Assembly (NCBI RefSeq): GCF_000522985.1
Contig: NZ_CP007129.1
Location: 930,001-994,000 of the forward strand
Reading direction: 5' to 3'
DNA length: 64,000 nucleotides
DNA from: Gemmatirosa kalamazoonensis
Lineage (GTDB): Bacteria > Gemmatimonadota > Gemmatimonadetes > Gemmatimonadales > Gemmatimonadaceae
Shown here piece by piece: positions 40,725 through 55,399 of the stretch; position 1 is the stretch's first letter; the number at the start of each line of letters is the position of its first letter. The notes under the pieces were generated by a model. That model worked only from the letters and a program-made list of their open reading frames with translations. It was not told the origin of the DNA and searched no databases. The translations under genes and the position numbers were made by a program.

Positions 40725-42209
40725 TTAGGCAGCCGGCGGCGGCAGCTCGGCGACGAGCCGCATCGACACGGCCAGCTCGTCGAGCTGGAAGTGCGGCTTG
40801 AGGAACGCGACCGCGCGATACACGCCCGGCTTGCCGGGCACCTCGACCACGTCCACACGCGCCTCGCTCAGCGGGTACTTCGCCTTGATGCCCGCCGGCG
40901 CGTCGGGGAGCGCGATGTAGTTCTGGATCCAGCGGTTCAGGAAGTCCTGGATGAGCACCCGGGACGTGAAGCCGCCGATCTTGTCGCGCATCATGACCTT
41001 CAGGTAGTGCGCGAAGCGCGACGTCGCGAAGATGTACGGCAGCTGGGCCGAGAGCCGCGCGCTCGCCGTCGCATTGGGCTTGTCGTAGACCTTCGGCTTC
41101 TGGCACGACTGCACGCTGAAGAAGGCCGCGTTCGGCGTCCCCTTCTGGTGCACGAGCGGCGCGAAGCCGAGGTCCGCGAGCTCCTTCTCGCGGCGGTCGG
41201 TGATCTGCACCTCCGTCGGGCACTTCATCACGATCTCGCCCGCTTCGGTGCGGAAGTTGTGCACCGGCAGCCCCTCCACGAGACCGCCACTCTCCACGCC
41301 GCGGATGGAGGCGCACCACCCGTACATCGCGAACGCCTTGTTGATGTTCGCGGCCATCGCGTAGGCGGCGTTCCCCCACAGGTACTTGTCGTGCTCCGTG
41401 CCGTCGACGCGCTCCTCGTAGTTGAACGCCTCGATCGGCACCGTCGCGCTCCCGTACGGCTCACGCACCAGGATGCGCGGGCCGGTCAGCGCCACGTAGC
41501 GCGAGTCCTCCGTCTCCCGGAACGCCTTCCACTTCGCGTACTCGGTGCTGTCGAAGATCTTCGCGAGATCGCGCGGCTGGTCGAGCTGCGAGTAGCTCTC
41601 CAGGTTGAACATGGTCGACGAGGCCGCGCTGATGAACGGCGCGTGCGCCGCCGCGGCGACGTTGGAGATCTTCTCCAGGAGCGCCATGTCCTGGCCGGTC
41701 TTGTCGAAGAAGTAGTCGCCGACGAGCGCGCCGAACGGCGTGCCGCCGAAGACGCCGTACTCCTCCTCGTAGACCTTCTTGAACAGCGCGCTCTGGTCGA
41801 ACTCCGATGCCCGCTCGAGATCCTTCAGCAGATCCTTCTTCGAGACGTTGAGGATCTTGATCTTCAGCATCGTGCCCGTCTCGCTCTGCCCGAGCAGATA
41901 CTTCAGGCCCCGCCACGACGCCTCGAGCTTCTGGAACTCGGGATGGTGCAGGACCTCGTTCAGCTGCAGCGACAGCAGGTGATCGATCTGCGCGATGCGG
42001 GCGTTGATCATCGCCTCGGTGTCGCGCGCGATGGTCATCTGCCCCTCGAGGACCTCGGCGACGAAGCGCTTCACGAGGTCCTTGCCGCGCTCCTTCGTCT
42101 GCGCGTCGCGGCCGAGCTTCCCCTGCTCGACGATCTGGTCGAGGAGACCGAGCGACTCGGTGTCCGCGGTGTAGCTCGCCGCCTGGGCGTTCGCCTGGGT
42201 CTCAGCCAT
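40725..42209 (-). CDS. tssC: TssC sheath large subunit
   Basis: 494 residues. TssC blocks: FQKLEASWRGLKYLLGQSET, EEYGVFGGTPFGALVGDYFF, LASEFD-like positions in RASEFDQSALFKKVYE, VALTGPRILVREPYG, and the C-terminal NYIALPDAPAGIKAKYPLSE. With TssB it forms the contractile sheath. The ATG at 42209 overlaps the tssB stop by 8 bp. Confidence 0.97.
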   Translation of the reverse strand: MAETQANAQAASYTADTESLGLLDQIVEQGKLGRDAQTKERGKDLVKRFVAEVLEGQMTIARDTEAMINARIAQIDHLLSLQLNEVLHHPEFQKLEASWRGLKYLLGQSETGTMLKIKILNVSKKDLLKDLERASEFDQSALFKKVYEEEYGVFGGTPFGALVGDYFFDKTGQDMALLEKISNVAAAAHAPFISAASSTMFNLESYSQLDQPRDLAKIFDSTEYAKWKAFRETEDSRYVALTGPRILVREPYGSATVPIEAFNYEERVDGTEHDKYLWGNAAYAMAANINKAFAMYGWCASIRGVESGGLVEGLPVHNFRTEAGEIVMKCPTEVQITDRREKELADLGFAPLVHQKGTPNAAFFSVQSCQKPKVYDKPNATASARLSAQLPYIFATSRFAHYLKVMMRDKIGGFTSRVLIQDFLNRWIQNYIALPDAPAGIKAKYPLSEARVDVVEVPGKPGVYRAVAFLKPHFQLDELAVSMRLVAELPPPAA

Positions 42210-42720
42210 TGGTGTTGCCCTCCAGCCCGAGCTCCGTGCGGAGCTTGGCCATCTTGTCCGCGTCGCCCAGCGTGGCCTGCAGCACCTCGTCGAGCTTCTC
42301 GTTCGTCTGCAGGTTCGCCCGCAGGTTCGCGAGCTCGCCGCGCAGCTCGAGGAGCTTGTTCAGCGCCGGCACCTGCTTCGCGACGGCGTCCGGCGAGAAG
42401 TCGTCGAGGCTGCGGAAGTTGAGGTCCACCTTGAGGTTCGGCGCGTCCGACTCCTCGCTCAGCTTGTTCTCCACCGAGAACGCGAGGTGCGGCTTCATGC
42501 TCGCCAGCACGTCGTCGAAGTTGTCCGGCGTCACCTCGACGAACTTCCGCTCCTTCAGCTTCGGCAGCGGCTCCGTGGCGTGTCCGGTGAAGTCGCCGAG
42601 GACACCCATGAGGAACGGGAGCTCCTTCATCTCGATGGCGCCGCCGGTCTCCACCTCGTACGAGATCTGGATGCGCGGCGGGCGGACGCGTTCGAGCTTC
42701 TTCTGGGTGCTTTCAGGCAT
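42202..42720 (-). CDS. tssB: TssB sheath small subunit
   Basis: 172 residues starting MPESTQKKLERVRPPRIQIS. Family features: ISYEVETGGAIEMKELPFLM, GVLGDFTGHATEPLPKLKER, FVEVTPDNFDDVLASMKPHL and a C-terminal helix (LLELRGELANLRANLQTNEK). It is the first gene of the 20-kb type VI operon running to 22579. Confidence 0.96.
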   Translation of the reverse strand: MPESTQKKLERVRPPRIQISYEVETGGAIEMKELPFLMGVLGDFTGHATEPLPKLKERKFVEVTPDNFDDVLASMKPHLAFSVENKLSEESDAPNLKVDLNFRSLDDFSPDAVAKQVPALNKLLELRGELANLRANLQTNEKLDEVLQATLGDADKMAKLRTELGLEGNTNG

Positions 42721-42867
42721 GTCGATCCCCTGCAGCGTGGAGCGGTGGAGTAAGGAGAGGTGCGCGCCGGTGGCGGCGTGGCTCTGGGGGGCGTAGGGGC
42801 CCGGGCGAGGTCCACCCGTTCGATCGTCGGCGACGTCATGCGCCGCCAAATGATTATTTTGGAGGCC

Positions 42868-42898
42868 ATATCGTGCACCTCGCATTCGAGGATGTCAA
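42868..42898 (-). promoter_or_regulatory. Candidate promoter/operator of the type VI operon
   Basis: In the 295-bp divergent gap, a perfect -35 TTGACA lies at 42893-42898 (minus strand). A dyad CCTCG-AATG-CGAGG (42878-42891) follows, and an AT-rich stretch (CGATAT, spacing 19, longer than ideal). The dyad between -35 and -10 could be a repressor site. The rest of the gap shows nothing else clear. Confidence 0.35.
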
Positions 42899-43015
42899 GC
42901 AGATGTGTCTTCCCCGTGACACATCCGAACGCCCGTGCCGCTCGCACGCCCGGCGCGGCGCGGAACTGGCACTCGACGCCGGCCGGGGACCTTCCTGGAT
43001 CCGCGCCGCGTCCCG

Positions 43016-44080
43016 ATGCGCCATTCCACACTTCCGCTCGCTCGGCTCGCCGCGACACGGTGGATGTCCACCGCCGCGGACCTGCGCGCGGTCGCCGCGT
43101 TCGCCGGCGCGCCCCATCGGGTCCTCGCGCCGATCACCACGCCGTCGCTCGTGGCGCAGCTCACGACGCGTCTCGCCACGCCGGCGCCGCTCGCCGAGCT
43201 GCTCGGCGCCCTCGGCGGGCGGTTCGTCGTCACGAACCCGTGCGCGACGGCGCGGCTGCCCAGCCCCATCGGCCCGCTCGTCCGCTCCGCGCTCCGCCGC
43301 GTGCTGTTCGAGGACGGCGCCGCCGAGCGACTCGGCGACCCGTCGTTCGTCGGGCCGCGCGGCCTAACGCTCGGCGACGCGCGCGACGCGGCCGACGCGC
43401 GACGCCTCCGCGCGCTGCTCGCCGCGCTCGACGACGGCGCGCGCGCCGCCCTCGCGCCGGGACGCGCCGCGTGGACCGCGGTGGCGCTGTACGAGCCGCG
43501 CACCCTCGCGGTGAGCATCCCCGACCTGCCCGCGGCCCCCGTCGCGCCGTCGCCGCGCCCGATCGCCGCCACGCCGCGCTACCGCCTGGTGCTCGTCGTC
43601 GGCCGCGGCGCGCACCCCACCGACTGGGCGGCGCTCGACGAGGCGGCATGTGCGGCAACCGCCGCCGCGTGGCCGTTCGGGGAGGAGCCGCTCCCCTGGT
43701 TCGTCGTGCGCGTCCTCGTCTCCGACGCCACCGCGGCGGCGGGCATGGACGCGTCGTCGCTCGCCCAGTGGGCCGCGCTCACCGGCCGCGCCGGTCCGAC
43801 GAGCCGCGACCGGTACTGGTTCCCCGAGACGTGGGAGCGGTTCCGCGAGCCGCAGCGCTCCGTCGGGCACGTGACGCCGGCCGTCGTCGCGCGCTCGCGC
43901 CGCGGCACGCCCTCCGGCCCGCCCGCGCACGCGTCGTACGAGGGCGACCCGTACGCGGAGGCCGTGGGCAACGCGGCATACGCGCTCAACCCGGCGGCCG
44001 AGCGCGGCGTGACGGTGCCCCCGGGCTACTGCCTGGTGGACTGCGCAGGGACGCTGGAGGTGGCGGTCGTGACGGCGTAA
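43016..44080 (+). CDS. Unknown protein linked to the type VI cluster
   Basis: 354 residues from ATG at 43016 (MRHSTLPLARLAATRWM). Alanine- and arginine-rich, no signal peptide or clear membrane helix. The middle (RYRLVLVVGRGAHPTDWAAL) and C-terminus (TGRAGPTSRDRYWFPETWER, NAAYALNPAAERGVTVPPGY) look like folded domains. It stands between the divergent tss operon and tssK and shares the latter's strand, so a baseplate or accessory role is plausible. I do not recognise the family; it is not ImpM/TagF, TssL or TssM by sequence. Confidence 0.6.
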   Translation: MRHSTLPLARLAATRWMSTAADLRAVAAFAGAPHRVLAPITTPSLVAQLTTRLATPAPLAELLGALGGRFVVTNPCATARLPSPIGPLVRSALRRVLFEDGAAERLGDPSFVGPRGLTLGDARDAADARRLRALLAALDDGARAALAPGRAAWTAVALYEPRTLAVSIPDLPAAPVAPSPRPIAATPRYRLVLVVGRGAHPTDWAALDEAACAATAAAWPFGEEPLPWFVVRVLVSDATAAAGMDASSLAQWAALTGRAGPTSRDRYWFPETWERFREPQRSVGHVTPAVVARSRRGTPSGPPAHASYEGDPYAEAVGNAAYALNPAAERGVTVPPGYCLVDCAGTLEVAVVTA

Positions 44081-44097
44081 TCCGCAACACGGATTAC
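44077..44097. repeat. Short perfect hairpin at a stop codon
   Basis: GTAATCCG-CAACA-CGGATTAC covers the TAA stop of the unknown gene and lies 17 bp before tssK. It resembles the family F repeat at 33440-33512 and may lessen read-through. Confidence 0.6.
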
Positions 44098-44114
44098 GCA
44101 TTACGTTGTACGCC

Positions 44115-45470
44115 ATGGCCTCCCTCCACCCGGTGCTCTGGACGAAGGGCACGCTCCTGACGCCGCAGCACCTGCAGGCGCAGGACCGCTACCTCGACGA
44201 GCTGCTGCGCCTCCAGCTCGGCGCGTTCACGTTCTGCCCGTGGGGCTTCTCGCGACTCGAGTTCGACCGCGAGGCGCTCGCCGGCGGCACCGTCGTGCTG
44301 CGCGCGGCGACGGGGCGCTTCCCGGACGGGCTGATGTTCGACGCGCCGGCGAGCGATCCGCCGCCGCCCCCACGCGCGCTCGACGTCGCGTGGGCGCAGG
44401 ACCAGCGCGCGCTGCTCGTGTCGCTCGGCGTGCCGGAGTACCGGCCGGGCGCGCGCAACGTCGCGGTGCGCGAGGCGTTAGGCACCGGCGCCGCCGCGAC
44501 GGCGCGGTGGCGCGCCGAGGAGCTGCTGACGCGCGACGAGACGACGGGGATGGCGGAGCGGCCGATCCAGGTCGCGCGCCCCAATCTGCGGCTGCTGTTC
44601 GCCGGCGAGACGGCCGAGGGCTACACGGCGATGCCGGTCGCGCGGCTGCTCCGCTCCCCGGCGGGCGAGGTCACGCTCGATCCGTCGTTCGTGCCGCCGC
44701 TGCTCGACGTCTCGGCGAGTCCCGCGCTCACCGGCATCGCGCGCCGCGTCGTGGAGCGCGTGGCGGCGAAGGCGAGCGCGCTCGGCGGCGCGCGTCGGCA
44801 GCGGAGCCTGGGGCTCGCCGACTTCTCGGTCACCGACGTGGCGGCGTTCTGGCTGCTGTACACGCTGAACACGCACCTGCCGGTGCTGCGCCATCTGCAG
44901 GAGGTGCGCGGCGGGCATCCGTCGGATCTGTGGGAGGCGATGCTCGCGCTCACCGGCGCGCTGACGACGTTCGCGCCGACGCCGCCGCCGCTGCCGACGT
45001 ACGACCACGCGCGACTCGGCGAGAGCTTCGCGGCGCTCGAGGCGCGGCTGCTCGAGCTGCTGGAGACGGCGGTGCCGGAGACCGCGGTGTCGCTGCCCCT
45101 GCGGCCGGTGCGGCCGAGCGTGCAGGCCGTGGCGCTCGAGCAGGAGAAGTGGCTCAGCGCGCCGCAGTGGTACCTCGCGGTGCGCTCGCCGCTGCGACAG
45201 GCGGACGTCGTGCCGCGCGTGCTGCACGGCTGCAAGGTGGGATCGGCGGACGTCGTGGACACGCTGATCCGACAGGCGCTGCCGGGGCTCGAGCTGGCGC
45301 ACGTCGCGCAGCCGCCGGGGGGCGTGCCGGTGAAGCTCGACTTCCTGTACTTCGCGATACGCCGCGCGGGGCCGGCATGGGACGCCGTGGCGCGGGCGCG
45401 CAACCTCGCGGTGTACGTGCCGACGGAGCTCGGCGAGGCGCGGTTCGAGCTGGTGATCGTGCTGCGTTAG
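44115..45470 (+). CDS. tssK: TssK baseplate protein
   Basis: 451 residues; ATG at 44115 chosen over a TTG at 44106. The opening is diagnostic: HPVLWTKGTLLTPQHLQAQD then RYLDELLRLQLGAFTFCPWG. The C-terminus (EKWLSAPQWYLAVRSPL, LPGLELAHVAQPPGGVPVKL, YFAIRRAGPAWDAVARARNL) is the domain that docks the baseplate to TssL/TssM. Those partners are not encoded in the window. Confidence 0.95.
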   Translation: MASLHPVLWTKGTLLTPQHLQAQDRYLDELLRLQLGAFTFCPWGFSRLEFDREALAGGTVVLRAATGRFPDGLMFDAPASDPPPPPRALDVAWAQDQRALLVSLGVPEYRPGARNVAVREALGTGAAATARWRAEELLTRDETTGMAERPIQVARPNLRLLFAGETAEGYTAMPVARLLRSPAGEVTLDPSFVPPLLDVSASPALTGIARRVVERVAAKASALGGARRQRSLGLADFSVTDVAAFWLLYTLNTHLPVLRHLQEVRGGHPSDLWEAMLALTGALTTFAPTPPPLPTYDHARLGESFAALEARLLELLETAVPETAVSLPLRPVRPSVQAVALEQEKWLSAPQWYLAVRSPLRQADVVPRVLHGCKVGSADVVDTLIRQALPGLELAHVAQPPGGVPVKLDFLYFAIRRAGPAWDAVARARNLAVYVPTELGEARFELVIVLR

Positions 45471-45489
45471 GCACGCGCAACTGCTTCAA

Positions 45490-45658
45490 CTGCAGAGGAC
45501 GCAGAGGACGCAGAGGAAACCCTTTTGAGTTGAACCACAGAGGACACCGAGGACACGGAGGAAACCACTTCAAGAGAGTTGGTTTCCTCTGTGTTCTCCG
45601 TGTCCTCTGTGGTTCAAAAGCAGTTGCCGTTCTCTGCGTCCTCTGCGGTTGAAGCAGC
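45490..45658. terminator. Family A nested hairpins between convergent genes
   Basis: Two nested inverted repeats of the GAGGACRCA unit fill the gap between the ends of tssK and the RND fusion gene. The inner arms match over about 35 bases. Position suits a bidirectional terminator, although there is no T-run. Confidence 0.6.
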
Positions 45659-45663
45659 TCAAT

Positions 45664-48600
45664 TCATGGCATCACCCTCCCGACCGCGCGGGCCAGCTCG
45701 GCGCGCGCGAGCATGACGCCGACTTCGGCCTGCAGCACCTGCGACTCGGCCTGGGAGCGGTTCGCCGTGGCTTCACGGGTCGCGGCGACGAGCGCCATGC
45801 CCGCGCCGCTCTCGCTCGACGCGATGCGCGCCGCGTCGGTGCGGGCCTCGAGAGCGGCGCGCGCGGCGTCGAGTCCCTCTTCCGCGCGCTGCGCCTTGCG
45901 GTACGCGCGGGCCACGTCGGTCGCGATGCGGTCGCGCACGCGGCGCACGTTCTCCGTCGCGCGCGCGGCCTGCGCCGTGCGCTCCTGCGTCGTGGCGCGG
46001 CGGCGGCCGAAGTCGAAGCCGGTGAAGCTCGCCTTCACGCCGACGACCCTGTTGTTGTGCGGCAGGAACGCGACCGCGTCCTGATAGCTCTGCGACGCGG
46101 TGAGCGTCACCTCCGGCAGGTAGTCGGCGCGGGCGATCGCGACGCCGCGGCGCGCCTGCTCCACCTGCGCTTCGGCGGCGATGACCTCGCCGTTCTCGGC
46201 GAGCGCGCGCGCCGTGAGCTCGGCGAGCGCGGGGAGGGACGCGCGATCCGCGCTCGCGAACCGCGGCGTCTCCAGCTCCAGCGGCGTGTCGAGCGGGAGG
46301 CCGAGCGTCTCGACGAGCTGCTGGGCGAGATCCTCCGCCTGGTCGACGAGCTGACCGCGCTCATACTCCGCCTGCCGCAGCGACGCCCGGGCACCGGCCG
46401 CGCGCGCGGGGAGCGACAGCCCGACCTGCACCGCGTGCGTCGCGTCGTCGAGCTGCGCGGCGCGCGCGGCGAGGCTCGCGTCGGCGGCGGCGAGCTGCCC
46501 GCGCGCGACGACGAGGCCGAGGTAGAGCCGCTGCACGCTGAGCGCGACGTCGGCCGCGATGCGCGCGCGGTCGCCCTCGGCCTCGCGCTCGCGCGCACCG
46601 GCGAGCTTCTCCGACTGCCGCACCTTCACGAGCTGCGTCAGCGGCTGCGCGACCGTGGACGTCATGTAGAACGTGCGCGCGCCGCCCTGCTCGATCACGC
46701 CCGTGGTGCTCGGGATCGGCTGACCGGTGCCGTCGCGTCCGAGCACGCCGGCCGGGATCTCGATCGACGAGTGCCCGTTGCCGTGCAGGTACGTCGCCTC
46801 GGTGGACAGCCGCGGGAACCAGTCGGCGCGCGCGGCCCGCCGCGCGGCCTGCATCTCCCGCACGTGCGCGTCGGCCATGCGCGCCGCCGTCCCGCTGCGG
46901 AGCGCGAGCGCGATCGCCTCGTCGAGCGTCAGATGCTTCGGCGCCGGCAACGTCGCCGATGCCGACGATGCCGACGACGCAGCTTCCTGCGCGCGCGCGG
47001 TCGGCGCGAACAGCAGCGCCACGGCCGTCGCGGCGGCGCCGGCGAGCGGGCGCGCCGGCACCGCGCCACTCGCGCCTAACGCGCGGCGCTCGGCGCGGCG
47101 CTCCACGAGCACGTAGAGCACCGGCACGACGACGAGCGTGAACACCATCGAGCAGATGAGCCCCACCGCGAGCACGCTCGCGAGCGGCGACCACATCGTG
47201 GAGCCGGACACGATCATCGGGAGCACGCCGACGGCGGCGGCCATGGTCGTGAGGAAGATCGGACGCAGCCGGCGCCGCCCGGCGTCGAGCGCGGCCTCCT
47301 CCAGCGACTCGCCGTGCGCGCGCCGCTCGTTGATGCAGTCCACGAGGATGATGGCGTTCCGCACCACCACGCCGGTGAGCGCGATCATGCCCAGCTGCGC
47401 GGTGAAGCCGAACGGGTTGCGCGTGACGAGGAGCCCGAGCACGCTGCCGAACAGCGACAGCGGGATCGACACCATGATGAGCAGCGCGAACTTCGTCTGC
47501 CGGAACTGGAACAGCAGGATGAGAAAGATGCCGCCGAGCCCCGCGAGCAGCGCGCCGACCATCTGCGCGGCGCTCTCGTTCGACGCCTCGATCTCACCGC
47601 CGTACGACACCTCGATCCCCTTCGGGAGCGCGAGGGCGGCGACCTGCGGCTGCACCTTCGCGAGCACCTCGGACGGCAGCACGCCGTACGTGGTGTACGC
47701 GCCGAGCGTGATGGTGCGCATGCCGTTGCGGCGCACGACGCGGCTCGGCTGCCACTCGGCGCGCACGTCGGCGATCTGCCGCACCGGCACCCGCACGCCG
47801 GTGGTGGACGAGCGCACGTACGTCGACAGCACGTCGTCGAACCGCGCCGTCTCGCGCTCGTCGAGCCGCGCGACGATGTCGATCTTCCGCCGTCCCTCCC
47901 AGAACGTGCTCACCGGCTCGCCCTCGAAGCCGGTCGCGAGCTGGCGCGCGACGTCGGACTCGGTGAAGCCGAGCCGCGTGGCGATGTCCTCGCGCAGGTC
48001 GACGGCGAGGCCGTAGCTCGCCTCGCGCCAGTCGGAGACGACGTACTGCGTGTGCGGCGTCATCTCGAGGATGCGCTGCACGCTGTCGCCCCACGCGCGC
48101 AGCGCGTGCAGGTCGTCGCCCGTGAGGCGCACCTCGATCGGCGACGGGAAGCTCGCGCCCTGCTGCAGCTCCTTGAGCTGGACGCGTGCCTCCGGCGCGG
48201 CCGCGGTGAGCCGCGCGCGCAGCGACTGCACGAGCGCGGGCGTCTCCTCGGCGCTCGTCGTGTTGACGACGAACTGGCCGTAGTTCGCGGTGGTGGCCTC
48301 GGGGTTCACGTTGTAGTAGAAGCGCGGCGAGCCCGCGCCGACGAACGCGGCGTACGTGCGCACGTCCTTGATGCGCGCGAGCTCGCGCTCGAGCTTCCGC
48401 ATCGTGGCATCGGTCGCCTCGATGCGCGCGCCCTCGGGGAGCCACACGTCGATCACGAACTGGTCGCGCTCGGCGAACGGGAAGTAGCGCTGCGGGATGC
48501 GGCCGAGCAGCACGACCGCGACGACGACGCTCGCGGCGCCGACCGCGACGGTGGTCCAGCGGCGGGGCATCGCCCACGCCATCACGCGCTCGTAGCCGGC

Positions 48601-50202
48601 CTGCATGGCGTCGAGTGGATTGAACCACACGGGACTGGGGACTCGGGACTGGGAACTGGGGACTCGGGGCTGCGGACTCCCGAGTCCCGAGTCCCGAGTC
48701 CCCAGTCCCGGCCTCAGCCCCGTCTTGATGAACGCGAGGCAGAGCACGGGCGTGAGCAGCATGGCGACGGCGTACGACGAGAGCAGCGCGACCGTGACGG
48801 TGATCGGCAGCGGGCGCATGAACTCGCCCGTCGTGCCGGGGAGCAGGATGGCGAGCGGGAGGAACGACGCGACGATGGTGAGCGTCGCGGCGAGCACCGG
48901 CACGGCGAGATCCGACGCGCACTTCCACGCCGCCTCCGACCGCGCCACGCCGTGATCGAGCTGCTCGACGTAGTTGTCGGCGATGACGATCGCGTCGTCC
49001 ACGACCATGCCCAACGCCACCACGAGCCCGGCGAACGAGATCTGGTGCAGCTCCACGCCGATCGCCGACAGCACGGCGAGCGTGACGGCCACGGTGACCG
49101 GGATGGCGACGGCCGCGATCGCGGCGACGCGGAACGGCAGCAGCAGAATCGTCACGAGCACGACCGACACGATCGCGATGCTGAACTCACGCCCGAAGTC
49201 GACGACGCGCTCCTGCACCATCGACGGCTGATCGGCGATGAGGTCGATCGCGATGTCGGGGGGCAGCGTGGCGCGCAGGTCGCCGATGGTGTGGCGGATC
49301 GCCTCCCCGAACTCGACGACGTTCTTCCCTTCCTGCATCTCGATCGACATGAGCACGGCGTCGCCGCCGTTCACGCGCACGAGGAACTCCGGATCCTCGA
49401 AGCGGCGCTCGACGTTCGCGAAGTCGCCGAGCCGCACCGGCTGGCCGAACGGACCCGTGCCGACGAGCATGTGGCGAAGATCCTGCTCGGTGGAGAACAG
49501 CCCGGTGGGGCGCATGGCGACGCGCGAGCCCTCGGCCTTCACGGCGCCGCCTTCCACGACGCCGTTGCGCTGCTGCAGCGTGTTGATCACGCTCGCCGCG
49601 GTTACGCCGTACTGCGCGAGCCGGCCGGCCGACGCCGTGATCTGGAGCTGCTCGCGCTGCTCGCCGTAGCGCCGGATCTTCGAGACCTCCGGGATCGTGC
49701 GCAGATGGTCCTCGATGCGATCGAGGAAGTCGGTGAGCTCGCGCGACGTGTAGCGGTCGCCGCGCACGGCGAGCAGCACGGCGACGACGTCGCCGAAGTT
49801 GGAGTTGACGATCGGGCCCTGGACGCCCGGCGGGAGCTCGCGCTGCCGCAGCTCGTTCATGTCGTGACGGAGCTGCGCCCAGAACTGCTCGGGGTTCTGC
49901 ACCGACTCCTCGAGCGCGACGTTCACGACGACGCCGCCGGCGCGCGAGGTGGAGTACGTCTTCGCCTTCCGCACCTCGGCGTACTGGAAGAGCTTCTGCT
50001 CGATGCGCCGGGTGACCTGCGCCTCGACCTGCTCGGCGGTCGCGCCGGGGTAGCTCGCGAGCACGAGGCCCGAGCGGATGGTGATCTTGGGATCTTCACG
50101 CCGCGGCATCTCGAGCAGCGCGTGGATGCCGAGCATGGTGACGAAGGCGATGAGCACCAGCACGACCTGCCGGTGGCGCAACGCCGCGCGAATCGGATTC
50201 AT
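45664..50202 (-). CDS. RND multidrug efflux pump fused to a TolC-like outer-membrane factor
   Basis: 1512 residues. The first 1020 or so are an HAE-type RND permease: TM4 with GMVVDDAIVIADN, twelve membrane helices, two periplasmic loops. Then comes an internal signal-peptide-like stretch (RPLAGAAATAVALLFAPTAR, AQEAA) and a full TolC-type domain with two OEP repeats (LTLDEAIALALRSGTAARMA; ENGEVIAAEAQVEQARRGVA). No stop or start separates them. Normally the two are separate genes. The cytoplasmic TM6-TM7 loop also carries a hairpin-encoded insert (GLGTRDSGLGS, SQSRVPSP). Start overlaps the upstream gene (ATGA). Confidence 0.92.
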   Translation of the reverse strand: MNPIRAALRHRQVVLVLIAFVTMLGIHALLEMPRREDPKITIRSGLVLASYPGATAEQVEAQVTRRIEQKLFQYAEVRKAKTYSTSRAGGVVVNVALEESVQNPEQFWAQLRHDMNELRQRELPPGVQGPIVNSNFGDVVAVLLAVRGDRYTSRELTDFLDRIEDHLRTIPEVSKIRRYGEQREQLQITASAGRLAQYGVTAASVINTLQQRNGVVEGGAVKAEGSRVAMRPTGLFSTEQDLRHMLVGTGPFGQPVRLGDFANVERRFEDPEFLVRVNGGDAVLMSIEMQEGKNVVEFGEAIRHTIGDLRATLPPDIAIDLIADQPSMVQERVVDFGREFSIAIVSVVLVTILLLPFRVAAIAAVAIPVTVAVTLAVLSAIGVELHQISFAGLVVALGMVVDDAIVIADNYVEQLDHGVARSEAAWKCASDLAVPVLAATLTIVASFLPLAILLPGTTGEFMRPLPITVTVALLSSYAVAMLLTPVLCLAFIKTGLRPGLGTRDSGLGSPQPRVPSSQSRVPSPVWFNPLDAMQAGYERVMAWAMPRRWTTVAVGAASVVVAVVLLGRIPQRYFPFAERDQFVIDVWLPEGARIEATDATMRKLERELARIKDVRTYAAFVGAGSPRFYYNVNPEATTANYGQFVVNTTSAEETPALVQSLRARLTAAAPEARVQLKELQQGASFPSPIEVRLTGDDLHALRAWGDSVQRILEMTPHTQYVVSDWREASYGLAVDLREDIATRLGFTESDVARQLATGFEGEPVSTFWEGRRKIDIVARLDERETARFDDVLSTYVRSSTTGVRVPVRQIADVRAEWQPSRVVRRNGMRTITLGAYTTYGVLPSEVLAKVQPQVAALALPKGIEVSYGGEIEASNESAAQMVGALLAGLGGIFLILLFQFRQTKFALLIMVSIPLSLFGSVLGLLVTRNPFGFTAQLGMIALTGVVVRNAIILVDCINERRAHGESLEEAALDAGRRRLRPIFLTTMAAAVGVLPMIVSGSTMWSPLASVLAVGLICSMVFTLVVVPVLYVLVERRAERRALGASGAVPARPLAGAAATAVALLFAPTARAQEAASSASSASATLPAPKHLTLDEAIALALRSGTAARMADAHVREMQAARRAARADWFPRLSTEATYLHGNGHSSIEIPAGVLGRDGTGQPIPSTTGVIEQGGARTFYMTSTVAQPLTQLVKVRQSEKLAGAREREAEGDRARIAADVALSVQRLYLGLVVARGQLAAADASLAARAAQLDDATHAVQVGLSLPARAAGARASLRQAEYERGQLVDQAEDLAQQLVETLGLPLDTPLELETPRFASADRASLPALAELTARALAENGEVIAAEAQVEQARRGVAIARADYLPEVTLTASQSYQDAVAFLPHNNRVVGVKASFTGFDFGRRRATTQERTAQAARATENVRRVRDRIATDVARAYRKAQRAEEGLDAARAALEARTDAARIASSESGAGMALVAATREATANRSQAESQVLQAEVGVMLARAELARAVGRVMP
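48631..48709. repeat. Family B hairpin inside the RND gene
   Basis: GGGACTC-type arms at 48631-48667 and 48680-48709. In frame, it encodes an insert in the cytoplasmic loop after TM6, where extra residues should do little harm. Confidence 0.88.
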
Positions 50203-51263
50203 GAGCCCTCCTGGCGCGTGGCGCGCACCTTCATGCCGTCCCGGATGTCGTGCTGCCCGCCGACGACGACGAGGTCGCCCTCGCGCAGGCCGCTGAGGAT
50301 CTCGACGGAGAGACCGCGCGGCGCGCCGATCTCGACGCGGCGCGCGTGGACCGTGGCCGACGCGCCGTCGAGCACGAAGGCCAGCGTGGCACCCTCGGCG
50401 TCGCGCACGATGGCGCCGCCGGGGATGGTGAGCGCGCGCACGCGCGTGCTGCCGGCGATGCGCGCCTCGGCCACCATGCCGACGCGAAGCGCGCGGTCGG
50501 CGTTAGGCAGCGTGATCTTCGTCGTGTACGTGCGCGTCGTCGGGTCGGCCGTGACGCCGACGAGCGTCACGCGCCCCGTCAGCTCGCGCCCACCGAGCGC
50601 GGGCACGGTGACCGTCGCCCGCTGGCCGACCCGCACCGACCCGACGTCGGCCTCGGGGATGCCGACGCGCAGCTCCATCGGATCGAGCTGCGCGATCGTG
50701 AACACCGGGACGCCCGGCGCCGCGGTCTCGCCCGGGTCGATCGCGCGCCGCGCGACGACGCCGGAGATCGGCGAGTACAGCCGCGCGTCGCGGAGCTGCT
50801 TCTGCGCCTGCGCGACGTTCACGACCGCCGTCTGCTCGGCGGCCGTCGCCTTCTCGAGATCGTTCGGCGCGAGGCTGCCGGACGCGTGCAGCGCGCGCAG
50901 CCGGACCAGCTCCTCGGCGTTGCGCTGGAGCGAGATGCGGGCGCGCTCGAGCGAGAGCTTCGTGTCCGTGGAGTCCACGGCGGCGACGAGCGCGCCCTCG
51001 CGGATCTCGGCTCCCTCGTCGGTGACGACGGCGGTGACCTTGCCCGGGATCTGAAAGGCGATGTCGATGGTGCGCGTCGCCTCCAGGATCCCGCTGGCGG
51101 GAATGGCGCTCGTCTCGTCGACGGCGCGAACGGGCTGGACCTCCACGGCGCGCAGCGGCGCGGACTGCGGCGCGCGTGTGTCGCGCGCGTCGGCGCTGCT
51201 GCAGGCGGAGCCGCCGCATGCGGCGAGGGCGACGGCGGCGAGCAAGCGATGGACGTTAGGCAT
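50199..51263 (-). CDS. RND membrane-fusion (periplasmic adaptor) lipoprotein
   Basis: 354 residues. A lipoprotein-like signal (LLAAVALAACGGSAC) is followed by the biotinyl-lipoyl halves (FQIPGKVTAVVTDEGAEIRE, LYSPISGVVARRAIDPGETA), a helical hairpin (LSLERARISLQRNAEELVRL) and beta-barrel and proximal domains. It links the pump to its outer-membrane part. It overlaps the TetR stop by 8 bp and the pump start by 4 bp, so the three are one operon. Confidence 0.92.
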   Translation of the reverse strand: MPNVHRLLAAVALAACGGSACSSADARDTRAPQSAPLRAVEVQPVRAVDETSAIPASGILEATRTIDIAFQIPGKVTAVVTDEGAEIREGALVAAVDSTDTKLSLERARISLQRNAEELVRLRALHASGSLAPNDLEKATAAEQTAVVNVAQAQKQLRDARLYSPISGVVARRAIDPGETAAPGVPVFTIAQLDPMELRVGIPEADVGSVRVGQRATVTVPALGGRELTGRVTLVGVTADPTTRTYTTKITLPNADRALRVGMVAEARIAGSTRVRALTIPGGAIVRDAEGATLAFVLDGASATVHARRVEIGAPRGLSVEILSGLREGDLVVVGGQHDIRDGMKVRATRQEGS

Positions 51264-51939
51264 GGTCGGAGGAGTCGTCGGTGGAAGGAGCGGGAGTCGG
51301 AGCGAGCGACTGAATCAGCGTCTCGATCGTCGCCGCGGCCGCGCGGTCGCGGTCCGGGCCGGTGAGACCGGCGTAGATGCCGGGGTAGGCGAACCACAGC
51401 GCGTGCGCGGCGAGCGTGGCGACGATCGTCCGCGCCGCGGCGCGGACGTCGACGGGGCGCAGCTCGCCGCGTACGACGCCGCGCTCGATGAGCCGCTCGA
51501 GCGCGTGCACCTGCCGCTCGAGCGCCTCGACCGCGTGCAGCGTGGCGAGCTCCGGAAAGCGCGGCAGCTCGGCCACGACGAGCCGCAGGATCGCGACGAG
51601 CTCCGGACGCTCCATCGAGCGCCAGTAGCGGCGCGCGACCGCGCGCACCGCGTCGGCCACCGTCGCGCCGGCGAGCACGTTCGTCGACTCGTCGTCGGTC
51701 GCGGTGAGGCTCGCGAGCATCAGCGAGCGGACGGTCTCGCGGAACAGCTCGTCCTTCGACGAGAAGTGCAGCTGCAGCGTGGACGTCGAGACGTGCGCGC
51801 GCCGCGCGATGTCGGCGAGCGTGGTATCGGTGTAGCCGCGCGCGCCGAACGTCTCGATGGCGGCGGCGATGATGCGGCTCGCGCGGGCGTCGTCGGGCAG
51901 CGGGTCGCCGAGCGTGCGCGGAGAGAAGGTGTCGGTCAC
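51256..51939 (-). CDS. TetR-family repressor of the efflux operon
   Basis: 227 residues from GTG at 51939. The helix-turn-helix is at residues 20-65 (SRIIAAAIETFGARGYTDTT, LADIARRAHVSTSTLQLHFS); the rest is a helical ligand domain. A longer reading from upstream is excluded because the sigma-54 start site maps near 51969. The leader is about 30 bases and the ribosome-binding site is poor. As first gene of the operon it probably represses its own transcription, adding ligand control to sigma-54 activation. Confidence 0.88.
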   Translation of the reverse strand: MTDTFSPRTLGDPLPDDARASRIIAAAIETFGARGYTDTTLADIARRAHVSTSTLQLHFSSKDELFRETVRSLMLASLTATDDESTNVLAGATVADAVRAVARRYWRSMERPELVAILRLVVAELPRFPELATLHAVEALERQVHALERLIERGVVRGELRPVDVRAAARTIVATLAAHALWFAYPGIYAGLTGPDRDRAAAATIETLIQSLAPTPAPSTDDSSDHA

Positions 51940-51979
51940 GGGTGTGGGACGAGGTGTGGTGAGGGTCGCCCCACCCGGA

Positions 51980-51995
51980 GGCAACGCCAGGACCA
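51980..51995 (-). promoter_or_regulatory. Sigma-54 promoter of the TetR-MFP-RND operon
   Basis: On the minus strand TGGTCCTGGCGTTGCC: GG (-24) and GC (-12) are ten bases apart as sigma-54 requires. The start site would be near 51969, 30 bp before the TetR GTG. It matches the promoters at 55676 and 58568 at nearly every position. Confidence 0.8.
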
Positions 51996-52095
51996 CGCTC
52001 CACCACCCCCGGCACACGCGAGCGAACGCGTTGCGCCCGCGCGACTTGGCTCGCGTCGACCGCGCCCCGCGGAGGGACGTGCCGCTCTTGTGGGA

Positions 52096-52129
52096 TCGCG
52101 AAATGTCGCAAGATTGGCATATCTCGCAG
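52096..52129. promoter_or_regulatory. Enhancer (UAS) of the efflux operon
   Basis: Proximal site, read toward the promoter: TGCGACATTTCGCGA (52096-52110), 13 of 15 matches to the copies at 55543 and 58425, centred 121.5 bp from the -12 GC. A weaker second site lies at 52115-52129. The sites also stand 36 bp before the enhancer-binding-protein gene, so they may control it too. Confidence 0.75.
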
Positions 52130-52145
52130 TCGAGGAGCGACGCAC

Positions 52146-55395
<3,250 letters not shown>

Positions 55396-55399
<4 letters not shown>

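Follow-up and report, generated by a model that had tools for sequence, protein, structure and literature searches.

In the window, the 64,000-nt stretch of Gemmatirosa kalamazoonensis DNA analysed in the present study, we identified an open reading frame on the minus strand (45664-50202) that encodes a whole RND permease and a whole two-repeat TolC-type channel in a single protein of 1512 aa, hereafter P0001. The frame consists of 1512 codons without a stop and begins with an ATG that is preceded by AGGAG. Judged from its sequence and from that of its relatives, P0001 is probably a precursor, which ordinary signal peptidase I (SPase I) would cut at an internal signal peptide to give a 13-helix pump and a free channel.

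To describe the two parts, we combined domain searches, hydropathy analysis and structure prediction. The first part was assigned to the RND family by a full-length match to Pfam ACR_tran (PF00873; E 3.5e-187, 624.7 bits), by 12 hydropathy peaks ahead of the junction that correspond to 12 TM helices (TM12, residues 1015-1033), and by the Asp pair of TM4. This pair (D402/D403) lies in the proton-relay motif VVDDA, and together with R948 in TM10 it was invariant in a four-sequence alignment (A2). We take R948 to correspond to the Lys of the AcrB proton relay, a position that is Arg in P0001; the R948 codon lies at 47359-47361 (minus strand), and the matched line of the structure 6vej also reads 'rn' at this place. 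The second part was assigned to the OMF/TolC family by two repeats of Pfam OEP (PF02321; E 3.3e-35; channel domain about 1091-1508) and by its alpha/beta-barrel protomer fold. The AlphaFold model of this part showed a TolC-type fold with a mean pLDDT of 86.3 that was ordered only from residue 1089, a Foldseek search with the model returned TolC/OprM (prob 1.00, E 1e-16), and the OMF homology began at L1091. The coordinates of all features are listed in Table 1.

Table 1. Features of the fusion gene and of its operon in the window
Feature	Position	Strand	Residues and basis
RND permease part	47098..50202	-	residues 1-1035; ACR_tran 5-1033
Arg-rich cytoplasmic linker after TM12	47044..47103	-	residues 1034-1053; n-region of the predicted internal signal
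Internal signal-peptide-like segment	46990..47043	-	residues 1054-1071; hydrophobic core and predicted site
Short N-terminal stretch of the predicted mature channel	46933..46989	-	residues 1072-1090, 19 aa; low model confidence
TolC/OMF channel part	45667..46932	-	residues 1091-1512; Pfam OEP x2, AlphaFold, Foldseek
Periplasmic adaptor (MFP)	50199..51263	-	HlyD_D23, TIGR01730 RND_mfp
TetR-family regulator	51256..52167	-	TetR_N, TetR_C_7
Palindromic dispersed repeat inside the TM6-TM7 loop	48630..48710	-	residues about 498-525, translated

Between the two parts, the linker ahead of the hydrophobic core carries five Arg/Lys and two acidic residues. The junction reads AAATAVALLFAPTARA/QE at about 47043-46990 (minus strand; the slash marks the predicted cut) and ends in FAPTARA/QE. 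The SPase I site was predicted at A1071/Q1072, between bases 46990 and 46989, with ARA/QE five residues past the core. We also searched the junction for a lipobox Cys at +1, as in OMF lipoproteins of the NodT type; it contained no Cys and read ARA/QEAASS. The original prediction had described a pump and a two-repeat TolC-like channel in one 1512-residue protein with the look of a signal peptide at the junction. The first of these claims was borne out by the open frame and the Pfam ACR_tran and OEP matches, and the second by the hydrophobic core, the ARA/QE site and the conservation of positions -3 and -1 in the clade of P0001 described below.

The fusion gene lies in an operon-like arrangement. 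The adaptor gene overlaps the start of the fusion gene at a stop/start ATGA, and the TetR-family gene is the probable regulator of the operon. The repeat in the TM6-TM7 loop has 36-nt arms that are 89% complementary, and residues 497-525, used as a query, matched more than 20 other places in the genome. The intergenic region after the fusion gene (45480-45660) is made up of short degenerate repeats of the ccacagaggacacggagaacacagagg kind on both strands. By eye, we further assigned type VI secretion-like genes adjoining the efflux operon (40725-45470), including TssB/TssC-like genes at 40725-42885 and a TssK-like ORF at 44106-45470. Two tandem sigma-54 activator-like ORFs with GAF-like N-termini (52146-55399, plus strand), likewise recognised by eye, run divergently from the TetR gene.

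To place P0001 among its relatives, we collected homologous loci from a plasmid collection and from a scan of genome contigs with the four-sequence alignment (80 loci). The plasmid collection yielded two fusions from Persicobacter and one Parabacteroides operon with three separate genes, and a scan of viral contigs returned no relatives. When 91 RND rows were scored with an OMF profile, 34 were fused, 45 had a separate adjoining OMF gene and 12 had no OMF nearby, which left 79 scorable relatives (34 fused and 45 split). The fused forms occurred in Acidobacteriota, Thermodesulfobacteriota, Bacteroidota and other groups, and in each of the 31 fused loci that were checked the adaptor gene was the immediate upstream neighbour. 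P0001 and its paralogue fell into a 24-row clade together with Acidobacteriota and Geobacteraceae, in which 23 rows were fused and one was without an OMF. The fused or split state required six or more changes on the RND tree, and a grouping of all fusions together was rejected (p-AU 3e-58). These results indicated that fusion arose or was lost repeatedly. In five Bacteroidota loci (L095, L106, L111, L121 and L125), the OMF frame directly follows the RND stop in the same frame, so that a single stop codon parts the split form from the fused one. Another locus, L008, was considered as a fusion on account of a 1699-codon open frame and was rejected, as its RND and OMF are separate genes. Relatives in the host's own family were only distant, unfused RNDs. 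The nearest Gemmatimonadota relative outside the same genome (L071; 52% in the pump) is also unfused; it is followed by a peroxidase-like ORF, and its adaptor gene lies downstream.

The junction signal was then compared across the fusions. Every one of the 35 fused junctions had the same three elements: a linker with R/K, a hydrophobic 10-mer with KD values of 2.3-3.5 and, past this core, a small-x-small site. Small residues at -3 and -1 are the classical signal peptidase I rule. The plain small-x-small count was non-discriminating (0.97 after TM3 and TM4, 0.91 at the junction and 0.82 in shuffled junction c-regions) and was therefore replaced by column entropy and an independent set of CzcA/CusA-type fusions. 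In the 24-row clade, column -3 held a small residue in 96% of rows (entropy 1.37) and Ala filled column -1 in 75% (entropy 1.12), whereas columns -2 and -4 were free (entropy 2.92 and 2.93) and the surrounding junction was variable. Because the alignment places gaps at the site in P0001 and P0002 themselves, these figures derive mostly from the other rows. The CzcA/CusA-type fusions of Bacteroidota, found in ten searched genomes, kept a hydrophobic core and an A/Q site in 17 of 17 cases, with a variable -2 position. In most split loci, the signal peptide of the free-standing TolC gene likewise ended in A/Q. The comparison thus shows that fusions from several phyla, belonging to two RND subfamilies, retain a site constrained at -3/-1 and have gained no tether, a demonstration that seems to be new.

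We considered whether the joined frame itself could be an artefact, in which a lost stop codon or an assembly frameshift merged two genes. The junction does contain a TAG in another frame (ttag, at about 47080). However, the same genome encodes on another replicon (C4) a 1599-aa paralogue (L002) of the same layout, 55% identical overall, with its own signal-like junction, an adaptor gene again ahead of it and a similar insert at the equivalent place of the TM6-TM7 loop. Because of this paralogue, and because over 30 fused homologues were found in other genomes, we regard the reading frame as real. The assembly that holds the fusion (7,479,215 bases in 4 contigs) also argues against an artefact, as its size agrees with that of the genome of strain KBS708, which was assembled into four replicons of 5312, 1106, 1041 and 21 kb from PacBio reads at about 100x coverage (PMC3974934). 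Taken together, a merging error is extremely improbable. A second explanation is that the channel is translated separately from an internal start at the junction, the read-through fusion being a by-product. A GTG at V1048 (47059-47061) would yield MPARPLAGAAATAVALLFAPTARA/QE, a normal signal peptide, and could in principle act as a weak internal start in P0001; in many split relatives, moreover, the OMF gene overlaps or abuts the RND gene. Against this, although most junctions hold candidate start codons, a Shine-Dalgarno-like motif accompanied an internal start in only one of 35 fusions, compared with 17 of the 33 RND starts in these loci. Two fusions lacked any candidate start codon, an ATG was available in only 12, and more than 30 genomes had no stop between the parts. 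Separate translation is thus an unlikely origin of the channel.

Alternatively, the fusion could function uncut, in which case the hydrophobic segment would serve as a 13th TM helix by which pump and channel stay tethered to each other across the periplasm. The segments are hydrophobic enough to span a membrane (KD10 2.3-3.5), and a single chain would fix the stoichiometry. However, the P0001 segment peaks at a KD19 of 1.48, weaker than all twelve RND helices (1.93-2.73), and conserved -3/-1 positions would have no use in a tether. The distance from the segment to the OMF fold was about 0-20 residues in all fusions, like that in free-standing OMFs. Measured from the core, it was 11-27 residues in the fused forms (median 14, to P0001 position 1093) and had a median of 11 in the free-standing OMFs of split loci (to position 1091); the similar lengths indicated that no tether was gained. 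In P0001, 19 residues lie between A1071 and L1091. Fully extended, at 0.36 nm per residue, they would span no more than about 7 nm, whereas in solved assemblies the channel tip is 13 nm or more away; the membranes there are 23 nm apart (MexB 7 nm, a gap of about 6 nm, OprM 10 nm; PMC4754349), and the equatorial domain of the OMF lies mid-barrel (PMC8277102). With so short a reach, an uncut chain could not fit such a complex, a geometric argument that presupposes a canonical AcrAB-TolC-like assembly. A working uncut tether is therefore also improbable.

Processing by SPase I thus remains the preferred explanation, and we infer its steps (Sec export, cleavage, 1:1 supply and retention of helix 13) as follows. 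The RND permease would insert co-translationally with 12 helices and a cytoplasmic C-terminus, and the Arg-rich linker would remain in the cytoplasm. The retained signal peptide would then act as a 13th segment in the N-in/C-out orientation and route the channel part through Sec, after which the signal peptidase I of the host would cleave after A1071. The freed channel would reach the outer membrane and trimerise, and the pump would keep the spent signal peptide as its 13th helix. Together with the adaptor encoded upstream, the products could form a tripartite pump, with RND and channel subunits made strictly 1:1. Such production fits the stoichiometry of 3:6:3 reported for such pumps (PMC4754349). 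The proposal that cleavage releases a free channel in a 1:1 ratio with the pump is favoured by the comparative evidence, which makes the cut itself a likely event. Self-processing, which the original prediction had also suggested, found no support because domain searches of P0001 matched only RND-superfamily and OEP/TolC-type families and no protease domain; the host genome carries three ordinary signal peptidase I genes. Nor is the retained signal a peculiarity of P0001, since all fused relatives examined, in two RND subfamilies, have one.

P0001 was further compared with known systems. The CzcA/CusA-type fusions of Bacteroidota (TIGR00914 plus OMF, open frames of about 1450-1485 aa) resemble it in joining RND and then OMF in a single ORF and in their retained signal-like segment. 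They belong, however, to the heavy-metal RND subfamily and exceed the curated TIGR00914 cut-off of 701 bits, whereas P0001 scored 350.9 bits. The fusions of Acidobacteriota and Geobacteraceae (for example Geomonas L050 and Trichlorobacter L060) and of Persicobacter (L048, WP_338399011.1) share its architecture, the MFP directly upstream and the internal signal, but are mostly 37-48% identical and have a shorter mature N-terminal stretch. Among operons with separate genes, that of Parabacteroides (L049) has the same gene order and families, but its channel is encoded by a separate gene with a start codon of its own. The solved structures closest to the RND part by sequence were 6vej (482.7 bits), which we take to be TriC, and MexK (480.6 bits; 20yy/9xwg), both of Pseudomonas aeruginosa. 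MexK and TriC are unfused, and the OMFs that they use are encoded elsewhere. Polyproteins with an internal signal are already known from fbcH of Bradyrhizobium japonicum, a cytochrome b/c1 polyprotein that is cut at its internal signal peptide. P0001 has the same layout of a polytopic membrane protein, an internal signal peptide and an exported domain in one ORF. The products of fbcH, however, belong to a respiratory complex and both reside in the inner membrane, whereas the second product of P0001 would be an outer-membrane protein.

In the literature searched, coverage of which was partial, we found no report on the processing of natural RND-OMF fusions. Such fusions are already present in databases, for example WP_338399011.1, and are labelled plainly as RND permeases; if they are SPase-cut precursors, their annotation and topology need correction. 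Pump and channel would then be supplied at a fixed 1:1 ratio, and the maturation of efflux pumps in the fusion-bearing lineages would include a signal peptidase step. It is conceivable, though on balance doubtful, that pump-channel polyproteins are a widespread and repeatedly evolved means of serving two membranes with one chain. SPase I would then be their obligatory maturation protease, and the spent signal peptide would remain permanently on the pump as helix 13, which may have acquired a separate function, perhaps resembling that of AcrZ, a small AcrB-binding helix. The fused and split relatives offer a direct natural test for selection on pump-channel stoichiometry.
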